Positions 24,934-38,532 of a stretch of DNA of 64,000 nt are shown here, in pieces. The stretch covers positions 1 to 64,000 of the forward strand of contig JALHOP010000010.1 in the NCBI GenBank assembly GCA_022842935.1. Direction: 5' to 3'. Source of the DNA: Myxococcota bacterium. Its GTDB lineage: Bacteria > Myxococcota > XYA12-FULL-58-9 > JALHOP01. The first letter of the stretch is position 1. Every line of letters begins with the position of its first letter. A model generated the notes under the pieces. The model searched no databases. It was not told the origin of the DNA and saw only the letters and a list, made by a program, of their open reading frames with translations. A program made the translations under genes and the position numbers.

Positions 24934-27900
24934 TCAAGCGACGATCTGCTGCGGCGGACGTTCCTCGCGACCGGCTGCTGGGCGAAGGGACTCGACCACC
25001 TCCGCGGCTGGCGCCATCTCGTCATCATCGACGTCAGCGTTCGACTTGAAGCGCCCGAGCTGCCGAGCGAACCACTGCGACGCGTCGTCGAACAGCGAAT
25101 ACGCGACGGGCGTCGCAAGCAGGGTCAACAAGAGCGACATCAGCTGTCCGCCTACGACGACACCCGCTGTCGCTCGGTTGTTGCCGGCGCCGGCGCCCTC
25201 GGAGACGATGAGCGGCACCATACCCGCAACGAACGCGAACGTGGTCATCAGGATGGGGCGCAGCCGGTCTTTGTTGGCAACGATGATGGCCGTCGCCCGG
25301 TCCATACCCTCGCCACGCAAGTGGTTGGTGTGATCGATCTGCAAGATCGAGTTCTTCTTCACGACACCGAAGAGCACGAGGAGCCCCAGCATCGAATAGA
25401 TGTCGAGCTGCTGCTTGAAGATGACGAGCGACAAGAGCGCAAAGGGCAAGGTGAGCGGCAAGCACAACAAGATGGTGACGGGGTGTAGCCACGACTCAAA
25501 CTGCGCCGCGAGAACCAGGTACATGAACACGAGCGACAGCAAGAACGCCGCGAGGAAGAGCTTGCCAGCCTTGGCCATCTCCTTCGAGCGACCCGACGGT
25601 CCCGAACGGTACTCGGCCGGCAGCTTGAGGGAATCGATGACGGTCTTCACGCCCGCCATGATGTCGCCTTCCGAGTAGCCGGCGCCGGGGTTAGCGCGGA
25701 AGGTGATCTGCCGCACGCGGTTCAGACGATTGATGAGCGACGGTCCACTGCCACTCTCCATGTGAACGACGTCGAGGAGCGGGACGGCAGAAACTTTGGA
25801 CGACGGTACCGTCATGAGAGCCAATCCCTCGAGGTCAGCGCGGTACTTGCGCTCGGCGCGCAGGTGCACCTCGTATTGTTCGCTCTTCTCCTCGTAGGTG
25901 GAGACCTCGAGACCGCCGACGAGGAGCCGCATCGCCGTCGCGATGTCCGACACCGCGACACCGAGTGACGCCGCTTTTTCGCGATCGATCTCGACCGCCA
26001 TCTCGGGCTTACCCGAGATGAACGAGGAGGTTACGTCGACAGCACCGGGTACCTCTTTTTTGATGCGTTCGATGACGGTGTCGTTGATCTCGGCGAGGCG
26101 CTCGAGCGAAGGCCCGCTCACATCGTACTGGACGAGCGCGGAGCTCCCACCCGCCATAGCGAACGCAGGGACGTCCGACACATCGATCTGAAGTTCTTTG
26201 GGCTGTTTGGCGATGATGGTCTTGCGCACGAAGTTCATGACATCGTGCTGCGACAAGTCGCGCTCGCTCGAGTCGATCATGCGTACGTAGATGCGCGCCT
26301 TGTTCGGCGTGCGCTCGTTGTTGTCGCCGATGGTCATGAGCGTCGCTTTGACCGTCTCGACGTTGCGAACCTCACGCGCGATGCGTTCCGCGACGAGGCC
26401 GGTGGCCTCGAGCGACGTACCCTCTGGAGCTCGCACGTTGATCTCGAAATGCGACTCGTCGTTGGTCGGCAAGAAGCCCTTCTTGACCGTCTTCATCAAC
26501 GGACCGACCGAAGCCAAGGCAGCGACGGCGGCGAGGACGATGACCCACCTGTGCGCCATCGACCAACGCAGAATACTCACGTAGCCGCGCTCGATGGGGA
26601 GGTAGAAGGAATCGACCAAACGCTCGAGGATGGGCTTTTGAACTGCACGCCCGCCCTGCGAAGCGATAGGTCGGTGCTTCTTGAGCCAGCGCGAGGCCAT
26701 CATCGGCGTGAGCGTGAACGACACGAGCAACGACACGCCGATGGCGAACGCCATGGTGAGGCCGAAGCTGTTCAAAAAGCGGCCGACGATGCCGCTCATG
26801 TAAGCGACCGGCAAGAACACCGCGATGAGCGACACGGTGGTGGCGAGCACGGCCAGACCGATCTCTTTGGTCGCGTGGACCGCCGCCTCGCGCGGCCTCA
26901 TCTTCTTCTCGTCGATGAAGCGGAAGATGTTCTCGAGGACGACGATGGCGTCGTCGATGACGATGCCGACCGCCAGGGCAAGCGCGAGGAGTGTGATGGT
27001 GTTGAGGGTGAAGTTCTGTTGCCACATGAGCGCGAACGTGCCGATGATCGACACCGGGATCGCGATGGCCGCGATAACGGTCGAGCGCAGATTCCCCAAA
27101 AACAAAAGAACCACCAGCGCCGCAAAGATCGCCCCGAGCACCAGATGTTCCTCGACGGCGTGAACACTGGTGCGAATAGTCTCACTGTTATCGCGGACAA
27201 CCTCGAGAGTGTAACCGGCCGGCAAGATCGGCTTGATCTGCGCCATGCGTTCGAGGACCGCATCGACGACGGCCACGGTGTTGCCGCCCGATTGTTTGCG
27301 TACCGACAACACGACAGCCGGAGTGCCATCTTTGACCGCGATGGTCTCGGCTTCTTCGGCGCCATCGTCGACACGTGCCACGTCACGGATGCGAACCGGG
27401 TAACCCTTCACGTGTCGGATGACCAGGCCGCCAATATCCTCGGGGCGCTCGACGCGACCCTTGATGCGCAGCGTGACCTCGTCGGACCCGACATCGATGG
27501 CGCCGCCCGGCATGGTGAGGTTCTGGCTCTGCACGGCGCGTTGCACGTCAGCGGCAGTCAACGCATGAGCACGCAATTGCGCCGGGTCGAGCCAGATATT
27601 CACCTGCCGTTCGCGGCCACCTACGATGGAAACCTGTCCGACGCCGGAAATATTCTCGAGTTTACGCTTGATGTTCTTGTCAGCGACCTCGGTGATCTCG
27701 CGCAGCGGCCGCTCGGCATTGACCGCGATATAGAGAATGGGCGTCGCGTCGGGGTCGGCCTTGGTGACGACCGGGACGTCGATGTCTTTGGGGAGATCGG
27801 GAATGACCCCCTGAACCTTCTCGCGGACCTCTTGCGCCGCGACGTCGATGTCCTTCTCGAGGACGAACTGCACGATCACCTGCGAAACACCGTCACTCGA

Positions 27901-28152
27901 AATCGAGCGCAGGTCGTCGATGCCCGCGATCGTGTTGACGGCTTCTTCGATCTTGTCGGTGATCTCCGTTTCGATCTCTTGCGGGGAAGCCCCCGTCTGC
28001 CGGGTCAACACGACGACCATCGGAAAGTCGACGTCAGGGAAGCGGTCGACACCGAGCTGCGACGCCCCAGTGATACCAACGACGACGATGGTAAGCATGA
28101 GGACTGTCGCGAAGATGGGGCGTTTGATGCTGATATTGGATAGCCACTGCAT
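24934..28152 (-). CDS. RND (AcrB/HAE1-family) efflux transporter
   Basis: A 1072-residue inner-membrane pump of normal length. It begins [20 protein letters not shown] with the [13 protein letters not shown] signature, has twelve membrane segments in two sets, the proton-relay segment [21 protein letters not shown] (adjacent Asp pair), and a C-terminal set with [15 protein letters not shown]. The closest types are MdtB/MexF-like HAE1 pumps. The adaptor gene ends 39 bases upstream, so the two are co-transcribed from the region around 29.43 kb. Confidence 0.95.
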
Positions 28153-28191: not shown

Positions 28192-29403
28192 TTAGCGTCC
28201 TTCGGCGAGCTCGGCGCTTGGCGGCTGCGGCGCCGACGCCTGTTTGGTGACGGTAACCTGCACCCCGTCACGAAGATCGTCGGTCACGCTTGCAACGACC
28301 CGCTCACCAGCCTCGACGCCTTTGGCAACCGCGACCAAGCCCCCCGCGAGCTCGGGTCCGAGCTGCACGAGGCGCTCCTCGATCTGCTGATGCTTACCAT
28401 CGTCTCGGATCACGAAGATGCGATAGGTCTCTCCGTCATCGCGGATGGCGGCTCGCGGCACGACGGGAGTAGGCACTTCTCCGAGAGTTACCTTGGCGAT
28501 CGCGAAGTTGCCTGGACGCAAAACACGGTCGCGATTGTCGATCACTGCTTCGACCACCAAGTCGCGCGTCTCGGCACGCAACGATGGACCAACGTATTTG
28601 ATGGTACCGGCGAAGGTCTGCTTGTCGAAGCCGGCCACGTCGAAGCGCACGGCCTGACCGACCTGGACGTAGCGGGCGTCGGCCTCTGGTACGTTGAGCT
28701 CGAGACGAAGCGGATCGAGCTCAACGAGCGACACGACCTTTGTATCGCGACCCACATATTCACCATCGTCGACGTAGCGCTGAGCCACCATGCCGGCGAA
28801 GGGCGCTCGCACCGTCGCATCACCCAGCTGCTGCCCGGCAAGCCGAGCCCGCGCTATGGCGGCCTCTGCTTGCTTCGCCTGGGCGTTGCAGGTTGCCGTG
28901 AGCCGGTCGAACTCGGCGTTACTGATGGCGTTGGTCGCAAAGAGCTTGCTGGCGCGTTCGCAATCACTGCGCGCCAGCTGCAATGACGCCTCGGAGGCCG
29001 CGGCAGTCGCGCCGGCCTCCTGGGCGTTCAATGAAGCCGTGCGCGGATCGAGACGCACCAGCGCTTGACCCTTCGCGACTTGTTGACCCCGCTCGACCAG
29101 CGTCTCCACCACCTTGCCGGCCCAGTCGGCGGCGACCTCTGAGCTTCGGTTGCCATTCAGGGTGCCCGTGAGTGTGAGGTAGCGCGGGGTGGGCGCGGCC
29201 ACGGCCTCGACCATCGTCACGGCCCGCGCCTGCGTGGTCGCCTCCTTGACGGCTGGCTCTCGGTGACCTTCGCCACAACCATAGAGCGTGAAGGCGGTCA
29301 CAGCGGAGGCTGCGATGATGACAGCCAAATCTCGAAGCTGGCGGTGACGTCCGACCTTCGGCGCGGGGATGTAGGCGTTGAGGGTCGCGAGCGGGAACAT
29401 CAT
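28192..29403 (-). CDS. RND periplasmic adaptor (membrane fusion) lipoprotein
   Basis: The ATG at 29403 (or 29400) follows AAGGAGAT and gives 403 residues; longer starts lack a ribosome-binding site. A signal sequence ends in TAFTLYGCG (lipobox). The lipoyl/barrel-sandwich halves (TLTGTLNGNRSSEVAADWAGKVVETLVERGQQVAKGQALVRLD and TVRAPFAGMVAQRYVDDGEYV) flank a long coiled-coil hairpin of Ala/Gln/Glu helices, and a beta-barrel (RLELNVPEADARYVQVGQAV) follows. This is an AcrA/MexE-type adaptor linking the RND pump to a TolC channel. Confidence 0.93.
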   Translation of the reverse strand: MMFPLATLNAYIPAPKVGRHRQLRDLAVIIAASAVTAFTLYGCGEGHREPAVKEATTQARAVTMVEAVAAPTPRYLTLTGTLNGNRSSEVAADWAGKVVETLVERGQQVAKGQALVRLDPRTASLNAQEAGATAAASEASLQLARSDCERASKLFATNAISNAEFDRLTATCNAQAKQAEAAIARARLAGQQLGDATVRAPFAGMVAQRYVDDGEYVGRDTKVVSLVELDPLRLELNVPEADARYVQVGQAVRFDVAGFDKQTFAGTIKYVGPSLRAETRDLVVEAVIDNRDRVLRPGNFAIAKVTLGEVPTPVVPRAAIRDDGETYRIFVIRDDGKHQQIEERLVQLGPELAGGLVAVAKGVEAGERVVASVTDDLRDGVQVTVTKQASAPQPPSAELAEGR

Positions 29404-29434
29404 CGAATCTCCTTGCGGGTCGGAGGACGCGGTT

Positions 29435-29450
29435 TGCACAGCGCGTACCA
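29435..29450 (-). promoter_or_regulatory. Putative sigma-54 promoter for adaptor-RND operon
   Basis: Read on the minus strand the site is TGGTACG-CGCT-GTGCA, against the sigma-54 consensus TGGCACG-N4-TTGCA. The invariant GG (-24) and GC (-12) are kept with correct spacing. The predicted start is near 29424, about 10 bases before the AAGGAG of the adaptor gene, giving a 20-base leader. Confidence 0.5.
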
Positions 29451-29524
29451 AAGCGCCATTCGTCTTAGGGACGCCGGCAACGCCAGAGAAACCGCTTTTC
29501 GTGGGGTGGACATTGACAGCCGCA

Positions 29525-29586
29525 GTGTCCGGACAGTTGTCCAGCGGACACCCCCGTGTCCGGGGGCGGCACCCCGATGTGTCCGG
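29525..29586. promoter_or_regulatory. Cluster of GTGTCCGG boxes, predicted activator-binding (enhancer) site
   Basis: GTGTCCGG occurs at 29525-29532, 29556-29563 and 29579-29586, and its inverse CGGACAC at 29545-29551. The pairs 29525/29545 and 29545/29556 form inverted repeats, the second with a 4-base spacer. A further GGACA-GT-TGTCC palindrome is at 29531-29542. The cluster lies 100-160 bases from the minus start and about 150-210 from the plus start, typical for an NtrC-type enhancer. Confidence 0.55.
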
Positions 29587-29664
29587 TTTGCCCGTCGTCC
29601 TTGATCCCCGCCGCGTTGCCCGCTACAGCGCCCAGCGTGGGCGAGACGGCGTTTGGCTCCACGT

Positions 29665-29677
29665 TATCAAGCGGTCT
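29665..29677 (+). promoter_or_regulatory. Weak IHF-like site
   Basis: TATCAAGCGGTCT fits the WATCAA half of the IHF consensus fully but the TTR half poorly. Its position between the box cluster and the plus sigma-54 promoter is where IHF bends DNA in sigma-54 systems. On sequence alone it is marginal. Confidence 0.25.
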
Positions 29678-29707
29678 GACCGAGGTCGGCGCGGCGTGTT
29701 TCCACGC

Positions 29708-29723
29708 TGGCACGAACCTTGGA
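29708..29723 (+). promoter_or_regulatory. Putative sigma-54 promoter for tolC-ABC-regulator operon
   Basis: TGGCACG-AACC-TTGGA matches the consensus TGGCACG-N4-TTGCA except G for C at -12. The -24 element is perfect. Predicted start is near 29734; the AGGAG of the tolC gene is at 29744-29748 and its ATG at 29758, giving a 24-base leader. The imperfect -12 base lowers confidence. Confidence 0.5.
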
Positions 29724-29757
29724 GGGGCTGCAGCCGTCACCCTAGGAGAGTTGCCCG

Positions 29758-31218
29758 ATGCGTCCCCGTTCGCTCGCCCTCATTGCAGTCGCGCTAACCT
29801 GCACAACCCCCGCGCTCGCAGAGCCCCTGCAACTGTTCGCCGTCCAGACAGCGGCCCCGGGTGGCAACGGTCACGCCATTGCCAATCCCAACGCAGAAGC
29901 TTTCAACAGCAAGGTCGAAGCGTTGTTCACGCCAGGCACCGGCCTCACCGCTGAAGAAGCCGCGGCAAAGGCCACGCAGACCAGTTTCGACGTTCAGGCA
30001 CAGCGCGAAGACATGCTCTCGGCAGAAGCGCTGCGCCAGCAGGCCAAGTACGGATTCATTCCGATGTTGACCGCTACGGCGAACTACACACGCACGCGGA
30101 GCATCACCAATCGCTTGGTCCAGACCGACCCGACCACCGGCGCCGAGCAAGCCATCATTCTGCCCTTCTTTCCGAACCAGTACAGCCTCGGCGCGAATCT
30201 CTCGATCCCGCTTTCGGACTATTTCCTGCGCCTGCCGCAGAGCCTGGCCTCCGCCAACCGCAGTCTCGATGCCGCCACTCTAAACGCGCGCCACACCGAG
30301 CTTACGACCGCAACGCAAGCCAAAGTCGCTTACTATGAATGGGCCCGCGCAAAGTTACAGCTGGTCGTTCAAGAGCAGGCCCTCGAGCAGGCCAGGGCGC
30401 AAGCCAAAGACGGACGAGCCCAGTTCGAGGCCGGCGCGTCGACGAACGCCGATGTGCTGCGCCTCGAGTCGAGCGTAGCGACGACAGAGCTCGCCGTCGA
30501 GCGCGCAAGGAACGCCGCTCAGCTCGCCGAGGAGCGACTACGCACCCAGATGCACGACGCGAGCCAGGGCCAGTACCAAATTGGTGAAGACGTTCGCGCT
30601 GAGATCACGCAGCTCGACAATGTCGGTGACATCGCAAGTCTCTGGAAAGAAGCCGAAGAGAAGCGACTCGATCTCAAGGCGGCGTCGCTCCAGGTGGAAG
30701 CACAACGCGAGCGCGCCAGCGCGAACCGCGCTGCCTACTATCCGCGTCTCACCGCCCAGGGCAGCTACTCGTACCTGAGCCCACTGCAACAGCGCTTTCC
30801 GCAGACCGACGACTTCGACCACTGGTGGACGTTGGGAGCCACGCTATCGTGGACACCGACGGACATCTTCGGCGCGCGCCAAGGTACAGAGAGCATCGAG
30901 CACCAAGCATCCAGGACAGAAGCTCTGCGAAACCTTTCGCGCGACAACATCCACGTGGCGGTGCTCAACGCTTATCAGGACTTGAACGTGGCAGCCGTTG
31001 CGATCGACACGACCACGCGTTCACTTGCCTCCGCCGAGGAGTCTTACCGTGTGCGCCGCGCTCTCTTTCAGAACGGTCGCGCGACCACCGTCGAGGTCAC
31101 CGATTCGGAAACGACCCTCACGCGGGCCCGCAGCGAAGCGATGAACGCGCGCATCGACCTACGCATCGCCCGCGCTCGCCTCATCAACGCCATCGGCCGC
31201 GACACCGAGCGCCAGTAG
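29758..31218 (+). CDS. TolC-family outer-membrane efflux protein
   Basis: A 486-residue protein with a Sec signal peptide (RSLALIAVALTCTTPALA). Two homologous halves of long Ala/Gln/Glu helices and strand pairs follow, as in TolC/OprM: YGFIPMLTATANYTRT with the outer strand, QYSLGANLSIPLSDYF, then ARAAYYPRLTAQGSYSYL... and SAEESYRVRRALFQNGRATTVEVTDSETTLTRARSEA. No lipobox. Ribosome-binding site AGGAG 9 bases upstream. It should form the exit duct for the RND pump encoded divergently and perhaps for the ABC transporter downstream. Confidence 0.92.
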   Translation: MRPRSLALIAVALTCTTPALAEPLQLFAVQTAAPGGNGHAIANPNAEAFNSKVEALFTPGTGLTAEEAAAKATQTSFDVQAQREDMLSAEALRQQAKYGFIPMLTATANYTRTRSITNRLVQTDPTTGAEQAIILPFFPNQYSLGANLSIPLSDYFLRLPQSLASANRSLDAATLNARHTELTTATQAKVAYYEWARAKLQLVVQEQALEQARAQAKDGRAQFEAGASTNADVLRLESSVATTELAVERARNAAQLAEERLRTQMHDASQGQYQIGEDVRAEITQLDNVGDIASLWKEAEEKRLDLKAASLQVEAQRERASANRAAYYPRLTAQGSYSYLSPLQQRFPQTDDFDHWWTLGATLSWTPTDIFGARQGTESIEHQASRTEALRNLSRDNIHVAVLNAYQDLNVAAVAIDTTTRSLASAEESYRVRRALFQNGRATTVEVTDSETTLTRARSEAMNARIDLRIARARLINAIGRDTERQ

Positions 31219-31237: not shown

Positions 31238-31936
31238 ATGATCAAGATGCAGGGGGTCAGGAAAGTCTACCGAAGCCACCTGCTGGCCATGGAGGCTCTG
31301 CGCGACTTCCACCTCACCATCGAGGACGGCGAGTTTGTCGCCATCATGGGCCCGTCGGGCTCGGGCAAGACGACGTTCCTGAACGTCGCCGGCTTGCTCG
31401 ACACCTTCGACGAGGGCACCTACGAGCTGGCTGGCGTCGACGTCATGGGCTTGAAGGACGCGGAGATGGCAAAGCTCCGCAATGAGAAGATCGGCTTCAT
31501 CTTTCAGAGCTTCAACCTCATCCCCGATCTCGATGTGTTCGACAACATCGATGTTCCGCTCCGCTATCGCGGCATGAACGCCCGCGAGCGCACCGAGCGC
31601 ATCGAGCTCGCGCTTACACGGGTCGGCCTCATCGCCCGACGTCACAACCGTCCTTCGCAGCTCTCGGGTGGGCAGCAGCAACGCGTGGGCATCGCTCGCG
31701 CCTTGGCTGGCTCGCCGCAGCTCATTCTCGCCGACGAGCCCACGGGTAACCTCGACTCGCTCATGGCCCGTCAGATCATGGAGCTACTGCAAGAGATCAA
31801 CTCACAGGGCACCACGATCGTCATGGTCACGCACGCCACGGAGCTCGCGGCTCGCGCCCATCGCAAGCTGCACATCCTCGACGGCAGGGTCATCGACCCG
31901 TGGGCCAAGAAGCGGAGCAGCGAGGTTGTACCGTGA
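31238..31936 (+). CDS. ABC transporter ATPase, MacB/LolD type
   Basis: A 232-residue ATPase: Walker [11 protein letters not shown]-loop [17 protein letters not shown], signature LSGGQQQRV, Walker [14 protein letters not shown], and H-loop [13 protein letters not shown]. The FQSFNLIP and GNLDS motifs are those of the MacB/LolD/FtsE group, which drive FtsX-like permeases in mechanotransmission rather than classical translocation. It overlaps the first permease gene (GTGA). Confidence 0.95.
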
Positions 31937-33264
31937 ACCCGCTCTCTCGCGCCTTGATGATGCTGGCGTATCACCTGCGTCACGCGGCGCGGAGCCTGTC
32001 GCGCACGCCCGGCTTCACCTTCGTCATGGAGCTGTCGCTCGGGCTCGGTGTCGCGCTCTGGACCGTCGCCCGCACGGCGATCGATTCGCAAGCCAACGTG
32101 GCAATCGCCGACTCCGACCAAGTGTATCTCGTCGAGATCCAGCGCGACATGCTGGTCCCGGTGCCGACGGAGAACCACGACCCGAACAGCTTCTGGGATC
32201 ACGTCCCCGACATCATGCTGACCTACCGTGATGCCACCGCCCTCGCCGCTCAGAGCGCGCGGCGGCACACGATCTCCTTCTTCTCTCCCCTGCTGGTGGC
32301 CAAAGCTGGCGGACCCGCGTCGAACCTTCGCGTGCGCTTCACGACGTCACCGATATTCGAGATGTTCGACCACGTCTTCACAGAGGGGGCGCCTTGGTCG
32401 GACCAGGACGAAGCCCAAGATCCGCAGGTCTGCGTCATCACCGAGGACCTCGCCGAACGGTTGTTCGGGAGCGCCAGCGCAATCGGCGCCGTAGTCCGCA
32501 TAAGCGGACGCGATTTTCGAGTTGTTGGAGTCGTCTTCGATAGTCGGACCGAGCGAAAGCTCTACGACTTCACCGCATATCCCGACACGGACAGCGTGTA
32601 CGTCCCCCTCGCGGCTTGGGACGTGCTCGAAGCGCGTCCGGTCACCTACTACACTTGGGGCGGCCCCACGGTGTCGCACGACGAGCTGGTGCGCAGCGAG
32701 ACCGGGTTTCTCCAGATGTTCGTCGAGCTGCCGAACGCGCAAGCAGTGGCGGACTACGAGAGGGTCTTGGCCGACTATGTGGCCGGCGAGCGCGAGACCA
32801 ATCGCGCCCCGAAGATCGCGCGCCCGACCCTTCGCCCGCTCGATCAGTGGGCGAACATGCTGACGGCGACGCCTTTCGTACTCTTCCAGCTCTTCGGTGG
32901 CATCGCCTTCATCGCTTGCGTCTTCAATCTGGTCCGCCTCTTGATTGCGAAATTCTCGGCACGCGCCAACGAGGTCGCCATCCGCCGGGCACTGGGGGCG
33001 CCCCGCCGCACGGTCTTCGTTCAACACTTGCTCGAGGCCGAGCTCGTGTCATGCGGCGGCGCCGTCTTGGGCCTATTGCTCGCCGCGGGCGGCATCGCCA
33101 TGCTGAACACTCTGATTATCGATCGCCCGGTCGACTTTTCGCTCGACACGCGACGCGTGCTTCTCGCTGTCGCTTCGGCGGTGCTTGCGGGCTTCGTTGC
33201 CGGCATCTACCCGGCCTGGCGTATTTGCAACACGCAGCCTGCCTCTGCGCTGAGGAGGCAATAA
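31933..33264 (+). CDS. ABC permease, FtsX/MacB_PCD family (first)
   Basis: The GTG at 31933 overlaps the ATPase stop and gives 443 residues. A transmembrane segment near residues 25-45 is followed by a 230-residue periplasmic domain (SDQVYLVEIQRDML... to ARPTLRPLDQW) and a C-terminal three-helix FtsX bundle with the family motif EVAIRRALGAPRRTVFVQHLLEAELV. With the second permease it would form a heterodimer. Its stop overlaps the next start (TAATG). Confidence 0.9.
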   Translation: MNPLSRALMMLAYHLRHAARSLSRTPGFTFVMELSLGLGVALWTVARTAIDSQANVAIADSDQVYLVEIQRDMLVPVPTENHDPNSFWDHVPDIMLTYRDATALAAQSARRHTISFFSPLLVAKAGGPASNLRVRFTTSPIFEMFDHVFTEGAPWSDQDEAQDPQVCVITEDLAERLFGSASAIGAVVRISGRDFRVVGVVFDSRTERKLYDFTAYPDTDSVYVPLAAWDVLEARPVTYYTWGGPTVSHDELVRSETGFLQMFVELPNAQAVADYERVLADYVAGERETNRAPKIARPTLRPLDQWANMLTATPFVLFQLFGGIAFIACVFNLVRLLIAKFSARANEVAIRRALGAPRRTVFVQHLLEAELVSCGGAVLGLLLAAGGIAMLNTLIIDRPVDFSLDTRRVLLAVASAVLAGFVAGIYPAWRICNTQPASALRRQ

Positions 33265-34448
33265 TGAGCGGTCACTACGGCCCCATGCTACGCGCTCTTG
33301 CAGCAAACCGCCGCGACTACCGGGTCCTCGTGTTCGCTACCGCGGTCGGCTACACGGTTGTCGTTCAAGCCTTGGCCTTCGCATCGTTGTTCTGGCGCGA
33401 TCTCGCCTCCGACTATGGCATCGACCCCGACCGCGTCGTGATTGTGCAGCTCGAAGCCAGTCGCGAAAACTCCGCATCCGCCGACGAGGTCAAGAGCGCC
33501 GCGCTCACAGTGCCCGGCGTCGAGAGTCTCGCGTGGCTCACACGGCGACCGTTCCGCTTCACCGAGTTCGGCGAGCCGGTGGCGCCCATCGATGACCGCA
33601 TGCGTGCGCAACTCGCGTGGCCGTCTTCAGGTGACGAGAACCTCGTGCGCACGCTTGGCCTGACAATGCGCGCGGGTCGCAACTACACGCCGAAACGCGC
33701 CGAGCCCGGCGAGGACATCGAGGCGGTCGTAAGCATGTCTCTCGCGACCTTTCTCACAGGCAGCGCCAAGCCAACCGACGCACTTGGGGTGCGCTTCCTC
33801 CACGGCATCAACGACCGGGTAATGCGCATCGTCGGAATCGTGGACGATGTGTCGGTCCACACCAGCTGGGTCCCCGACGTTCACAACATCGTGTTCACCT
33901 ATTCGCCGCTGGTCACCGCCCCCCGACGCTTCGCGGTCATGCGCGTAGCAAGCGGCGATCCTGCGATCATCGACCGGGTCGGCGAGACGATCCGCGCGGG
34001 CGGCAATTGGGTCGAGCTCACGAGCCTGAGGAACCTGCGGGCGTCTACCAGCGCAACGAGTCGAGGCGCCGCACGCGTCCAGATTGTCGTCATCGCTGTC
34101 GTCTTGTTCGTCGGACTTATCGGTAACTTCGGCGCCGCCTCGTTCTCGGTCGCCGAACGCGCGCGAACCATCGGCATCCGGCGTGCTTTGGGGGCCACTC
34201 GCGGGCAGATCATCCGCTACTTCCTCGAGGAGAACCTGCTCGTCACCACCGGCGGCATCGTCATCGGCATCCCCATCGCTTTAGCGGTCGGTACCGCCGC
34301 CGAGCATCTAGAGACGAGCTTCATTCTCGAATGGAAGCAGATGGTGCTCGCGGCCCTCTGTTTCTACGTCACGAGCCTGTGGGCAGCACATGCGCCGGCG
34401 CTCAAAGCCGCGCGTATTCCCCCTTCGGTGGTGAGCCAGGCCGCATAG
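33264..34448 (+). CDS. ABC permease, FtsX/MacB_PCD family (second)
   Basis: The ATG at 33264 follows GAGGAGG by 6 bases; the product has 394 residues. One N-terminal membrane segment (VLVFATAVGYTVVVQALAFA), a periplasmic domain (DPDRVVIVQLEASREN to SLRNLRA) and an FtsX bundle with RTIGIRRALGATRGQIIRYFLEENLLV. It is somewhat shorter than the first permease, consistent with an asymmetric pair. The alternative frame upstream to 32616 is a shadow of the first permease. Confidence 0.9.
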   Translation: MSGHYGPMLRALAANRRDYRVLVFATAVGYTVVVQALAFASLFWRDLASDYGIDPDRVVIVQLEASRENSASADEVKSAALTVPGVESLAWLTRRPFRFTEFGEPVAPIDDRMRAQLAWPSSGDENLVRTLGLTMRAGRNYTPKRAEPGEDIEAVVSMSLATFLTGSAKPTDALGVRFLHGINDRVMRIVGIVDDVSVHTSWVPDVHNIVFTYSPLVTAPRRFAVMRVASGDPAIIDRVGETIRAGGNWVELTSLRNLRASTSATSRGAARVQIVVIAVVLFVGLIGNFGAASFSVAERARTIGIRRALGATRGQIIRYFLEENLLVTTGGIVIGIPIALAVGTAAEHLETSFILEWKQMVLAALCFYVTSLWAAHAPALKAARIPPSVVSQAA

Positions 34449-34466
34449 GCTAGAGTGAGGAAGAGC

Positions 34467-35906
34467 ATGTCGTCCCTGAAAGTGTTGATTGTCGATGACC
34501 AGGACGCCGTACGCTCGGCGCTTGAGCTTCTCCTCGACATCCAGGGCATCCCAACGGTGAGCGTCGACTCGCCCGCGGCCGCCATCGCGGCCATCGACCG
34601 TGGCGACGTCGGCTGCGTCATCCAAGACATGAACTTCACCCAGAGCAACACCACGGGCGAAGAAGGCGTCGAGCTGTTCAAGCAACTCCACGCCAAGGCG
34701 CCCGAGGTCGGCATCCTGCTGATGACGGCGTGGACCTCTCTCGAGACCGCCGTGAAGCTCGTCAAGGAAGGCGCGGCCGACTACATCGCCAAGCCCTGGG
34801 ACGACGAGAAGGTCGTCCGCTCGGTGAAGTATCTGCTCGCCCTGCGCGAGCTCAAGCTCGAGAATCTTCGCCTACGCGACCAGGCGTTACGTATGCGCGA
34901 CCAGATGGCCGCCAAATACGATCTGCGTGGGCTCATCTACGCGAGCCAGGGTATGCACGAGGTCGTGACCCTGGCGGTGAACGTCGCCCCCTCGGACGCC
35001 GCGGTGCTGATCACGGGTCCAAACGGCTCGGGCAAGGAGAAGATCGCAGAGATCGTTCAGGCAAACTCACGCCGCCGCGACAAGCCGTTCGTCAAGGTGA
35101 ACGCGGGCGGCCTTCCCGACGAGCTTCTCGACGCCGAGCTTTTCGGCGCCGAAGCTGGCGCCTATACGGGCGCCACCAAGCTGCGTGTCGGTCGCTTCGA
35201 AGCTGCCGACGGAGGCACGCTCTTCCTCGACGAGATCGGCAATCTGTCCATGAGCGGCCAGGCCAAGATCCTGCGCATCCTGCAAACAGGCGAGTTCGAA
35301 CGCCTGGGTTCCAGCGTGACTCGCAAGGTGAACGTCCGCATGGTGTCGGCCACCAATGTCGACCTGCAGACCGCTATCGCGACAGGCAAGTTCCGCGAAG
35401 ACCTGTACTTCCGTCTGAACGTCATCGAGCTGCGCGTCCCGGCGCTCGCCGACCGTATCGATGACATCTTGCCGCTCGCGACTTACTTTCTGAAGCAGTA
35501 CGCAGCCGAGAACACTCCCCGTCTCGGCGAGGACGCTGAGCGCTTGCTCAAACGCTACCCATGGCCCGGCAACGTCCGAGAGCTGCAGAACCGTATGCAG
35601 CGCGCCACCTTGGTCTGTCGGGACGGCATCATACGCCACGAGGACCTCGGTATCGCCCAGGAGCACGAAGCACCAGCGTCGCGTGTGCCCGCGCGCCCTG
35701 CGCCAAGCCCGCAAACCAACATGTCCAGACCCAGCACCCCGGCGGCCCCCCCAGCCGAGCTCGACCGCGGCGTCATCGAAGAGGCCCTGTTGCGAAATGG
35801 AGGCCTCGTGAGCCGAGCCGCTTCAGACCTGGGATTGAGCCGCCAGGCGCTGTATCGTCGTATGGAGAAGCTGGGGATCGTGCTCGAGCGTAAGCCGAGA
35901 ATGTGA
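34467..35906 (+). CDS. NtrC-family sigma-54-dependent response regulator
   Basis: The ATG at 34467 follows GAGGAAGAG and gives 479 residues. Receiver domain: DD at 10-11, phospho-acceptor Asp54 in IQDMNF, Lys109 in AKPW. AAA+ domain: Walker A GPNGSGKE (184-191; GESGTGKE is usual), loop GAYTGA (231-236; GAFTGA is usual), Walker B LFLDEIG, arginine-finger region FREDLYFRLNVIELRVP. A Pro-rich linker leads to a Fis-type HTH (RAASDLGLSRQALYRRMEKLGI). It is made with the kinase downstream and is the obvious candidate to act at the boxes at 29525-29586. Confidence 0.94.
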   Translation: MSSLKVLIVDDQDAVRSALELLLDIQGIPTVSVDSPAAAIAAIDRGDVGCVIQDMNFTQSNTTGEEGVELFKQLHAKAPEVGILLMTAWTSLETAVKLVKEGAADYIAKPWDDEKVVRSVKYLLALRELKLENLRLRDQALRMRDQMAAKYDLRGLIYASQGMHEVVTLAVNVAPSDAAVLITGPNGSGKEKIAEIVQANSRRRDKPFVKVNAGGLPDELLDAELFGAEAGAYTGATKLRVGRFEAADGGTLFLDEIGNLSMSGQAKILRILQTGEFERLGSSVTRKVNVRMVSATNVDLQTAIATGKFREDLYFRLNVIELRVPALADRIDDILPLATYFLKQYAAENTPRLGEDAERLLKRYPWPGNVRELQNRMQRATLVCRDGIIRHEDLGIAQEHEAPASRVPARPAPSPQTNMSRPSTPAAPPAELDRGVIEEALLRNGGLVSRAASDLGLSRQALYRRMEKLGIVLERKPRM

Positions 35907-35917
35907 GGCAAAGCAGT

Positions 35918-37363
35918 ATGGATCCCGTGCAAAAACTCAAAGCCGACTGTCGCGAGGCACGCCGTTTTCACGGCAAGCCAAATCTCGCCCGGCTCAACAT
36001 GCGCGCCCGCGCTTTCTTCACCATCATGGCGGTCGTCGGTCTCGCGGTGCTCGCGACCATGATGACCAGCGAGATGGTGCGCTCGCCGATGCAGCAAGTC
36101 GCAGTCACCATTCTCCTTGCGGTGCCCCTCGCGGCGATCATCGTATGGATGGTGCTACGGCCGGTGCGGGAGCTGGTTCAGGCGGTGAGCGACGGCCTCT
36201 TGTCATACCGTGAAGGTGACTACACCATGCGCTTGGCCGTCGGATGCGAGGGTGGCATCGGCGACATTGTGCAGCGCTTCAACGCGCTCGGCGACATGCT
36301 CTCGACCGACCGCAACGCCACGTACCAGAAGCACATGATCTTCGAGACCGTGCTGCAGTCAGCGCCCGTATCGATCGTCCTCTGCGACGAAGCCGGCTAT
36401 GTGCTCTTCGCCAACAACGCCGCTTGTGAGCTCTTCAACGAAGGCAGCTCCCTCGAGGGTGCCGACATCCATCAGGTGCTGGCGAGTGTTCCAGACGAGA
36501 TGCGCGAGGCGCTCGAGTCGGGTCAAGATTCGTTGTTTACGGTGAGCCGCAACGGCAACGTCGATACGTTCCACGTGCAGAAGCGCTACTTCGAAATCAA
36601 GACGCAGCTCGTGACGTTCTACAAGGTCGAGACGTTGTCACGCGAGCTCGCGCGCCAGGAGGTCGAGGTCTGGAAGCGCGCCATCCGGGTGATCGGACAC
36701 GAGATTAACAACACGCTGGCGCCGGTGAGCTCACTCGTCCACTCCGCGAAAGCGATCGCTGGTATGCCCGAGAAAGCGGACAAGCTCGTCAAGGTCTTCG
36801 ACACCATCGAAGAGCGTACTGGCCACCTCAAAGACTTCCTGCAGTCGTATGCCCGCTTCGCTCAGTTGCCCCGGCCCACCAAGAGTTTGCAATCGTGGAA
36901 CGCCCTGCTCGAGAGCGTGCGTCCGCTTTACAGCTTCGAGGTCGCAGGCCCCCTCCCGGACGCGGCCGGGTACTTCGACCCGACCCAGCTTCAGCAGGTA
37001 CTCATCAATCTGGTGAAGAACGCGTACGAATCGGGGAGTGCCCACGGCGCCATTCAGGTGCACGTCGGTCACGCCGAGGAAGGAGGCTTCGAGCTCTGCG
37101 TCCTCGATCGCGGTTCAGGCATCAGCGACGAGGCCCTCAAGAAGGTCCTCTTGCCCTTCTACTCCACGAAGAAACAGGGCCAGGGACTGGGTCTTTCACT
37201 CAGCCGCGAAATCATCGAGGCCCACGGGGGGCGACTTTCGATCCACCGGCGCGAGGGCGGCGGCACCATGGTCCGCTGCTACTTGCCATCACGGGAGCAG
37301 CAGGCAACGACCTCGAGCACGGAGATCTCGACGGCGGCCCTGCAGGCACGTATCGAAGCCTAA
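35918..37363 (+). CDS. Sensor histidine kinase (NtrY/AtoS-like), partner of the sigma-54 regulator
   Basis: The ATG at 35918 gives 481 residues. Two membrane segments (about 32-50 and 60-80) are separated by fewer than ten residues, so there is no periplasmic sensor. A HAMP segment follows, then a PAS domain (about 137-235), then the H-box RVIGHEINNTLAPVSS with His261 and a HATPase domain (INLVKNAYESG, LDRGSGI, FYSTKKQGQGLGLSLSREIIEAHGG). Sensing is probably in or at the membrane, or by the PAS domain. It lies 11 bases after the regulator stop and ends the operon. Confidence 0.93.
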   Translation: MDPVQKLKADCREARRFHGKPNLARLNMRARAFFTIMAVVGLAVLATMMTSEMVRSPMQQVAVTILLAVPLAAIIVWMVLRPVRELVQAVSDGLLSYREGDYTMRLAVGCEGGIGDIVQRFNALGDMLSTDRNATYQKHMIFETVLQSAPVSIVLCDEAGYVLFANNAACELFNEGSSLEGADIHQVLASVPDEMREALESGQDSLFTVSRNGNVDTFHVQKRYFEIKTQLVTFYKVETLSRELARQEVEVWKRAIRVIGHEINNTLAPVSSLVHSAKAIAGMPEKADKLVKVFDTIEERTGHLKDFLQSYARFAQLPRPTKSLQSWNALLESVRPLYSFEVAGPLPDAAGYFDPTQLQQVLINLVKNAYESGSAHGAIQVHVGHAEEGGFELCVLDRGSGISDEALKKVLLPFYSTKKQGQGLGLSLSREIIEAHGGRLSIHRREGGGTMVRCYLPSREQQATTSSTEISTAALQARIEA

Positions 37364-37403: not shown

Positions 37404-37455
37404 TGCCTTTGTTGGGCTGCGGCACGTGCGCGACTCATGTTATGAGCCAGCGGCC

Positions 37456-38532
37456 ATGATGATTGTCGGCCTCGGCCGCGACGAGCTGCGGGCGGTTCTT
37501 GCCCCTCTGGAACTCGACACCCCGCGCGTCTTCCGCGCGCTGTGGACGGGGCTGTACGCACGCGGCGCGACGTCAATCGAGCAGCTCGGTCTGGGCAAGA
37601 AGGTGTGCGAGAAGCTCGCCGGAGCGGTAAGCCTCGCCCGCCCTGAGATGGTCCGCGAGCAGGTCTCGAGCGACGGAACGCGCAAGTGGCTGCTGAAGCT
37701 CGCCGACGGTAACCTCGTCGAGACCGTCTACATCCCCGAAGAAGGTCGCGGCGCGGTCTGCGTCTCATCGCAGGTCGGGTGCACCATGCGCTGCTCCTTC
37801 TGCCACACGGGTACGCAGCCCCTGGTGCGCAACCTTACCGCGGCCGAAATCGCCGCCCAGGTCGTCCTCGCACGTGACCGTCTCGGTGACTTCGTTGGCG
37901 GCAAGCGAGGCAATCTGGTCGGCAGCGTCGTGCTCATGGGTATGGGTGAGCCGCTCGCAAACTTCGATGCCGTCGTGTCTGCCATTGCGGTCATGAGTGA
38001 TGCCGATGGCCTCGCCATCTCGAGGCGTCGCATCACGCTTTCCACCTCGGGTCTCGTGCCTCAGATCGACCGCCTCGGCAGCGAGTGTCCCGTGAGTCTC
38101 GCCATCAGTCTGCACGCGACGAACGACGCGCTGCGCAACGAGCTGGTGCCAATCAACACGCGCTTCAATCTCGCGACGCTCATCGATGCCTGTCGCCGCT
38201 ATCCAGCGACCAATGCCCGACGCATTCTGTTCGAATACGTCATGCTCGACGGCGTCAATGACAGCGACGCCGAGGCGCGAGCGCTCGTGAAGCTACTCGC
38301 GGGCTTGCACGCCAAGGTGAACCTCATCCCCTTCAATCCGTGGCCAGGTAGCCGTTATGGCACGTCGAAACCCGAGCGGATCGAGGCCTTCGCGCGCATC
38401 CTGGTCGAGGCCGGCTACCCTTCGCCGGTACGCACGCCGCGCGGCCGGGACATCGCAGCGGCCTGCGGGCAGCTCAAGAGCGATTCGACCCGTCCCCAAA
38501 AAGCCCCTCGATCGTTGCATGCTGACATCTAA
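37456..38532 (+). CDS. rlmN: RlmN: 23S rRNA/tRNA adenine-C2 methyltransferase (radical SAM)
   Basis: The ATG at 37456 gives 358 residues, near the family's usual 350-390. An HhH-like N-terminal domain precedes VETVYIPEEGRGAVCVSSQVGCTMRCSFCHTGTQPLVRNL: the CxxxCxxC motif for the SAM 4Fe-4S cluster. GMGEPLANFD, TLSTSGLVPQI and VSLAISLHATNDALRNELVPIN are family blocks. The C-terminal AAACGQL contains the second catalytic Cys. It modifies rRNA A2503 and certain tRNAs to maintain translational accuracy. It stands alone. Confidence 0.95.
   Translation: MMIVGLGRDELRAVLAPLELDTPRVFRALWTGLYARGATSIEQLGLGKKVCEKLAGAVSLARPEMVREQVSSDGTRKWLLKLADGNLVETVYIPEEGRGAVCVSSQVGCTMRCSFCHTGTQPLVRNLTAAEIAAQVVLARDRLGDFVGGKRGNLVGSVVLMGMGEPLANFDAVVSAIAVMSDADGLAISRRRITLSTSGLVPQIDRLGSECPVSLAISLHATNDALRNELVPINTRFNLATLIDACRRYPATNARRILFEYVMLDGVNDSDAEARALVKLLAGLHAKVNLIPFNPWPGSRYGTSKPERIEAFARILVEAGYPSPVRTPRGRDIAAACGQLKSDSTRPQKAPRSLHADI

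Follow-up and report, generated by a model that had tools for sequence, protein, structure and literature searches.

A putative shared sigma-54 control centre between two divergent pump operons of a Myxococcota bacterium, with an apparently conserved operator

Analysis of a 64,000-nucleotide stretch of a Myxococcota genome (6.28 Mb in 46 contigs; assembly GCA_022842935.1, contig JALHOP010000010.1, positions 1 to 64,000; hereafter the window) indicates that the 354-bp gap at 29404-29757, which separates two back-to-back pump operons and contains two -24/-12 elements and a cluster of TGTCC/GGACA half-sites, is very probably a shared sigma-54 control centre, where a linked two-component system drives both operons by means of the cluster and the two promoters. 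The leftward operon (from 29403) encodes an MFP adaptor and an RND permease, and the rightward operon (from 29758) encodes a TolC-family protein, an ABC ATPase, two FtsX-type permeases, an NtrC-type response regulator (RR) and a sensor histidine kinase (HK), with short or overlapping junctions between the genes. The first-pass annotation, made from the sequence alone, had interpreted the gap as divergent sigma-54 promoters with an enhancer cluster, and conservation in regulator-linked operons largely supports this interpretation.

The two -24/-12 elements face outward and lie exactly where they had been placed, TGGTACG-CGCT-GTGCA on the minus strand (29450-29435) and TGGCACG-AACC-TTGGA on the plus strand (29708-29723). 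Compared with the sigma-54 consensus TGGCACG-N4-TTGCW, in which a GG and a GC 10 bp apart are near-invariant, the minus site has both dinucleotides at the correct spacing and two mismatches elsewhere, as expected of a sigma-54 promoter, while the plus site has the GG and the -12 G and departs from an otherwise full match only by a G in place of the -12 C (TTGGA). When the 127,970 positions of the window were scored with a -24/-12 matrix, just one further site (54901, 14.8) reached at least 13.9, the score of the minus site, and the chance of such a site in the correct orientation within ~220 bp is ~0.002 per side. Each promoter ends ~12 bp ahead of its predicted start and is followed by a short leader and an AAGGAG or AGGAG ribosome site, in line with the short leaders first described. 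Start sites with sigma-70 elements elsewhere had been named as a finding that would count against the assignment, and a consensus scan of 29300-29860 returned no sigma-70-like promoter.

Between the promoters, half-sites begin at 29508 (GGACA), 29526 (TGTCC), 29531 (GGACA), 29538 (TGTCC), 29546 (GGACA), 29557 (TGTCC) and 29580 (TGTCC), and include the palindromes TGTCCGGACA (29526-29535), GGACAGTTGTCC (29531-29542) and TGTCCAGCGGACA (29538-29550). The three direct GTGTCCGG boxes noted in the first-pass annotation are present at 29525, 29556 and 29579, with no other plus-strand copy in the 64 kb, whereas the single inverted copy listed with them gives way to two near-copies, each matching at 7/8 positions: CCGGACA (from 29529), which overlaps the first GTGTCCGG box to produce the palindrome TGTCCGGACA, and GCGGACAC (from 29544). 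The operator is better seen as alternating TGTCCG/CGGACA half-sites, often arranged as GGACA-N2-TGTCC, than as direct GTGTCCGG boxes. The boxes lie ~100-162 bp from the predicted start at 29424 and ~148-209 bp from that at 29734, which agrees with the spacing of about 100-210 bases originally estimated.

Fortuitous boxes and promoter look-alikes in GC-rich intergenic DNA might produce a similar picture, as single palindromes of this kind number ~20 in the genome, where their counts are not above the composition expectation, and other -24/-12 look-alikes are present in the window. We give this explanation next to no probability, given that seven half-sites fall within 29508-29584, six of them within 65 bp, a density above that of all 200 first-order Markov simulations of 64 kb (maximum five, reached once), and that motif and promoter are both conserved in relatives. 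Single palindromes identify the regulon only in combination with a -24/-12 site.

Conservation was assessed among relatives of the regulator, comprising 80 loci from one scan of named genomes and further relatives from genomes of the same phylum. These relatives are 50-64% identical and are spread over Myxococcota, Acidobacteriota and Gammaproteobacteria (Lysobacter, Luteimonas, Tahibacter, Rheinheimera, Glaciecola and others), so likeness of their intergenic DNA is not expected from descent alone. A half-site cluster together with a -24/-12 site is found in the 2.2 kb upstream of 42 of the 44 regulator-linked ABC-FtsX-FtsX operons, whereas the remaining 773 kb of these loci holds a single such combination, and the two exceptions (L054 and L108) have weaker versions of these elements. 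In this set of operons, the boxes and the -24/-12 site lie 1.3-1.8 kb before the ABC gene, ahead of the gene that precedes it (the adaptor where identified), and the TGTCCG/CGGACA half-sites of the relatives stand 40-120 bp upstream of the -24/-12 site. The elements are thus conserved as a unit, and the comparison of orthologues that had been suggested as a means of refuting the proposal failed to do so.

When the sequence upstream of 75 strong -24/-12 sites was screened without bias for each of the 1024 pentamers, GTCCG-N0-4-CGGAC came out on top (28 sites versus 0.49 expected), and the pentamers next after GTCCG were CGGAC, GGACA and TGTCC. The commonest half-site spacing in relatives is 7 bp, corresponding to GGACA-N2-TGTCC (40 pairs), and across 40 operons the GTCC/GGAC cores are most frequent 50-110 bp ahead of the -24. 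In the promoters of 40 relatives the -24 GG and the -12 G are invariant and the -12 C occurs in 39. Between boxes and promoter, the relatives have 10 perfect IHF-like sites versus 0.1 in shuffles, mainly at about -18 or -30 and spaced roughly one helical turn. An upstream activating sequence followed by an IHF site and the promoter is the classical layout of NtrC-type activators, and the order of boxes, IHF-like site and promoter in relatives matches it. The IHF-like site of the window is weak when taken alone, as ~5% of shuffled versions of the 70-bp segment do equally well.

The divergent layout also recurs in other loci. An MFP-RND operon runs leftward and a TolC-regulator operon rightward in L051 and L099, an MFP-RND operon leftward and a regulator gene rightward in L049, and all three have central boxes with a -24/-12 element on each side. 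In L045, among the closest relatives of the window regulator in the tree, RND and ABC-FtsX-FtsX-RR-HK genes stand in one row, and the RND/ABC association is therefore not unique to the window. Of 23 MFP homologues retrieved independently of the regulator, no more than one showed a site, and that a weak one; the boxes therefore accompany the regulator rather than the adaptor family.

The regulator itself has the domains of a sigma-54 activator, as Response_reg, Sigma54_activat and HTH_8 all score above cut-off and together identify an NtrC-family RR. In the receiver, D58, T91 and K113 do not vary among relatives, and the GA[FY][TS]G motif is present, with GAYTGA in the window regulator and, among 84 relatives, Y in 51 and F in 33. 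In PspF, the Y variant of the GAFTGA loop reportedly still engages sigma-54. The SRQ of the recognition helix is near-invariant (R and Q in 82/82 covering sequences, S in 81), and rpoN occurs both in the genome that contains the window and in all six related genomes tested. The protein scores below the NCBIfam equivalog cut-offs for AtoC (365 versus 714, the best match), NtrC (332 versus 559), the PEP-CTERM regulator PrsR (331 versus 503), ZraR (278 bits versus 760) and GlrR (253 versus 763).

Binding of the linked regulator to the boxes is proposed from sequence, and the genome holds many NtrC-type activators (107 first-look candidates), so that a different regulator, either another such activator or a repressor, might occupy the boxes instead. 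We consider this very unlikely, because the boxes track linkage to the regulator over three phyla and varied targets (MacB-type, RND/TolC and ExbBD/TonB), do not track the adaptor family alone, and are altered where the recognition helix is altered. In a Myxococcaceae outgroup, the regulators checked have the helix SRS and the loop GAFTDA, and the exporter operons have a changed dyad, TGTCCGTTYYTGGGACG, ~95 bp before the -24/-12 site, a paired change that fits co-evolution of helix and box. Loci with the TGTCCGTTYYTGGGACG dyad are L022, L023, L024, L025 and L028. The same outgroup was dropped as a sigma-54-negative control, since its exporter operons also have -24/-12 sites.

The plus promoter is the weakest part of the case for a shared control centre, and several points weigh against that reading. 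Its -12 element is GG rather than the near-invariant GC, and the operator lies 128-200 bp from the plus -24, compared with 62-134 bp from the minus -24, which is farther than in most relatives (mostly 40-120 bp). The -24/-12 matrix was built on general consensus values; under one derived from the relatives, the two window sites rank 3rd and 5th in the 64 kb. The relatives span three phyla but are not statistically independent, and plain counts of pentamer clusters in the 2.2-kb upstream regions have little discriminating power in GC-rich DNA (GTCCG in 44/44, CGCGC in 35/44), which is why we rely on position-restricted and joint tests.

The TTGGA sequence and the longer distance on the plus side would also suit a scheme in which the operator efficiently serves the minus (MFP-RND) promoter only, the plus site is weak or a relic, and TolC-ABC-FtsX-RR-HK is read mainly from another, unrecognised promoter. 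This scheme appears unlikely, given that the plus site far outscores every other on its strand of the intergenic region (14.0, with the runner-up at 5.5), that the exporter operons of relatives nearly always have this promoter, that the consensus scan offers no sigma-70-like alternative, and that the equivalents in L049, L051 and L099, also without the -12 C, show conservation in the rest of the element (TGGCACG), as would suit a variant that is tolerated. Across the four divergent RND loci, the -12 element on the TolC/regulator side reads TTGGA in the window (29719-29723), GTGAA in L051 (8546-8550) and L099 (8540-8544), and ATGTA in L049 (9903-9907); the missing C may be something that promoters of this type tolerate, or it may mark a weaker promoter.

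For the shared control centre, we infer a mechanism in which the kinase phosphorylates the regulator on a signal, probably envelope-related, and the regulator would then oligomerise on the TGTCC/GGACA cluster, with DNA looping leading to open complexes of sigma-54 RNA polymerase at both outward promoters. The minus promoter would yield an MFP-RND transcript and the plus promoter a TolC-ABC-FtsX-FtsX-regulator-kinase transcript, the latter providing positive autoregulation, and the predicted outcome is co-induction of both pumps and the regulator. On a broader scale, we hold with moderate confidence that the regulator defines a hitherto undescribed cross-phylum sigma-54 regulon (Myxococcota, Acidobacteriota and Gammaproteobacteria), marked by TGTCCG/CGGACA clusters, that coordinates envelope machines, namely MacB-type exporters, RND-TolC pumps and, in several myxobacteria, ExbB-ExbD/TonB, and that in the window it co-induces two pumps sharing one TolC and perhaps one adaptor.

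Boxes with -24/-12 sites were also seen in myxobacteria at genes for ExbB and TonB or TonB-dependent receptors, in L031, L032 and L035 upstream of the regulator genes. In L050 (6150-6370) and L038 (20740-20990), the divergent geometry lies between an ExbB gene and a gene for a TonB-domain protein or TonB-dependent receptor, the L038 receptor being judged from its start only. A second likely target in the genome of the window is a gene for a small PGPGW-family membrane protein (L122 position 1501 / L142 10523; G000:C9:236522), upstream of which are an excellent -24/-12 site, TGGCACGGATGATGCT, and, ~90 bp further upstream, a TGTCCGGACA box cluster.

Table 1. Genes and predicted control elements of the divergent locus (positions in the window).
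Feature	Position	Strand	Remarks
RND transporter permease, ACR_tran, HAE1/multidrug type	24934..28152	-	PF00873, 941 bits
Periplasmic adaptor, MFP (RND_mfp TIGR01730)	28192..29403	-	profile match, 235 bits versus cut-off 95
Predicted sigma-54 promoter of the MFP-RND operon, TGGTACGCGCTGTGCA	29435..29450	-	score 13.9; start predicted at ~29424; equivalents in L049, L051, L099
Putative operator/enhancer cluster	29508..29587	.	seven TGTCC/GGACA half-sites; motif conserved in relatives
IHF-like site TATCAAGCGGTCT, weak	29665..29677	+	differs from WATCAANNNNTTR at 2 positions; lies between the operator and the plus promoter
Predicted sigma-54 promoter of the TolC-ABC-FtsX-FtsX-RR-HK operon, TGGCACGAACCTTGGA	29708..29723	+	score 14.0; start predicted at ~29734
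TolC-family outer-membrane efflux protein (OEP)	29758..31218	+	profile match
ABC ATPase, MacB/LolD/DarD-like	31238..31936	+	under all curated specific-name cut-offs seen
FtsX/MacB_PCD permease 1	31900..33264	+	resembles one half of ADOP permease
FtsX-like permease 2	33264..34448	+	start MSGHYGP
NtrC-type response regulator	34455..35906	+	receiver, AAA+ with GAYTGA, Fis-type helix-turn-helix, recognition helix SRQALYRR; candidate activator for both promoters
PAS/HATPase sensor histidine kinase	35903..37363	+	overlaps regulator gene; proposed partner

The minus operon encodes an RND multidrug pump of the HAE1 type, as it has both an ACR_tran permease and an RND_mfp adaptor. Unlike its relatives, the plus operon lacks an MFP gene and carries TolC in the first place, where relatives have the adaptor. 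Plausibly, one TolC, and perhaps one adaptor, serves both pumps, because the only adaptor at the locus is that of the RND operon. The true start of permease 1 is probably inside its open reading frame, past the end of the ABC gene. The top NCBIfam match of the ABC ATPase is the darobactin exporter DarD (269 versus a cut-off of 375), which hints at peptide export. On the same strand, ~60 bp past the kinase gene, lies a gene for an RlmN-type 23S rRNA methyltransferase (37426-38532; 359 bits versus a cut-off of 290) that could be co-transcribed with it. Comparison of the intergenic DNA with a plasmid collection gave no match.

Tripartite exporters are usually discussed under local regulators of the sigma-70 type. 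If the proposed control is correct, an entire clade of exporter operons from soil and aquatic bacteria would seem to stay silent until triggered by an NtrC-type two-component system, and the specific operator would serve genome searches and lead to the rest of the regulon, while offering a way to switch the exporters on and find their substrates. The conserved pair of operator and regulator that would control these exporters is apparently undescribed: no description of the regulator, the operator or the arrangement was found in the literature searched, the coverage of which was limited, and a paper on the sigma-54 regulome of D. vulgaris makes no mention of this motif or these transporters (PMC4641369).

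The closest parallel in layout is ZraR of E. coli and Salmonella, an NtrC-type RR over the divergent sigma-54 promoters of zraSR and zraP in envelope stress (PMC4987338), which in E. coli binds the zraP/zraSR spacer (PMC8249747). The window, L049, L051 and L099 appear to have the same plan, with a single cluster of regulator sites flanked by outward-facing sigma-54 promoters, of which one would give autoregulation; the targets in the window, an RND pump and a TolC/ABC-FtsX exporter, differ from that of ZraR, a periplasmic chaperone. The first-pass annotation had known of no description of the exact arrangement for an RND plus MacB/TolC locus; divergent geometry around a shared regulator site was already known from zraP/zraSR, and it is the regulator/operator family and its exporters that appear new. 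GlrR is another NtrC-type RR for which a TGTC/GACA dyad precedes a sigma-54 promoter, with enhancer sites TGTC-N10-GACA at glmY (PMC4987338), while the half-sites here are TGTCCG/CGGACA, clustered and most often 7 bp apart, with no preference for the N10 spacing. Two-component control of FtsX/MacB-type ABC exporters is known from MacAB-TolC, which is PhoPQ-regulated, and from BceAB/BceRS-type modules (review PMC5985334). The regulator proposed here differs in being a sigma-54 activator, and its adaptorless operon, which adjoins an RND pump, has TolC but a separate ATPase and two separate permeases in place of the MacB ATPase-permease fusion and MacA of MacAB-TolC. A 2025 survey predicts -24/-12 promoters for ABC/FtsX permeases (COG0577, COG1136) in Gammaproteobacteria, Opitutia and Bacteroidia and, in its available part, calls this the first such evidence for FtsX/ABC exporters (PMC12316311). 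That part of the survey names, for this exporter class, no activator, operator or divergent RND arrangement, nor Myxococcota or Acidobacteriota, and the regulator described here is a candidate for the activator missing from its prediction.
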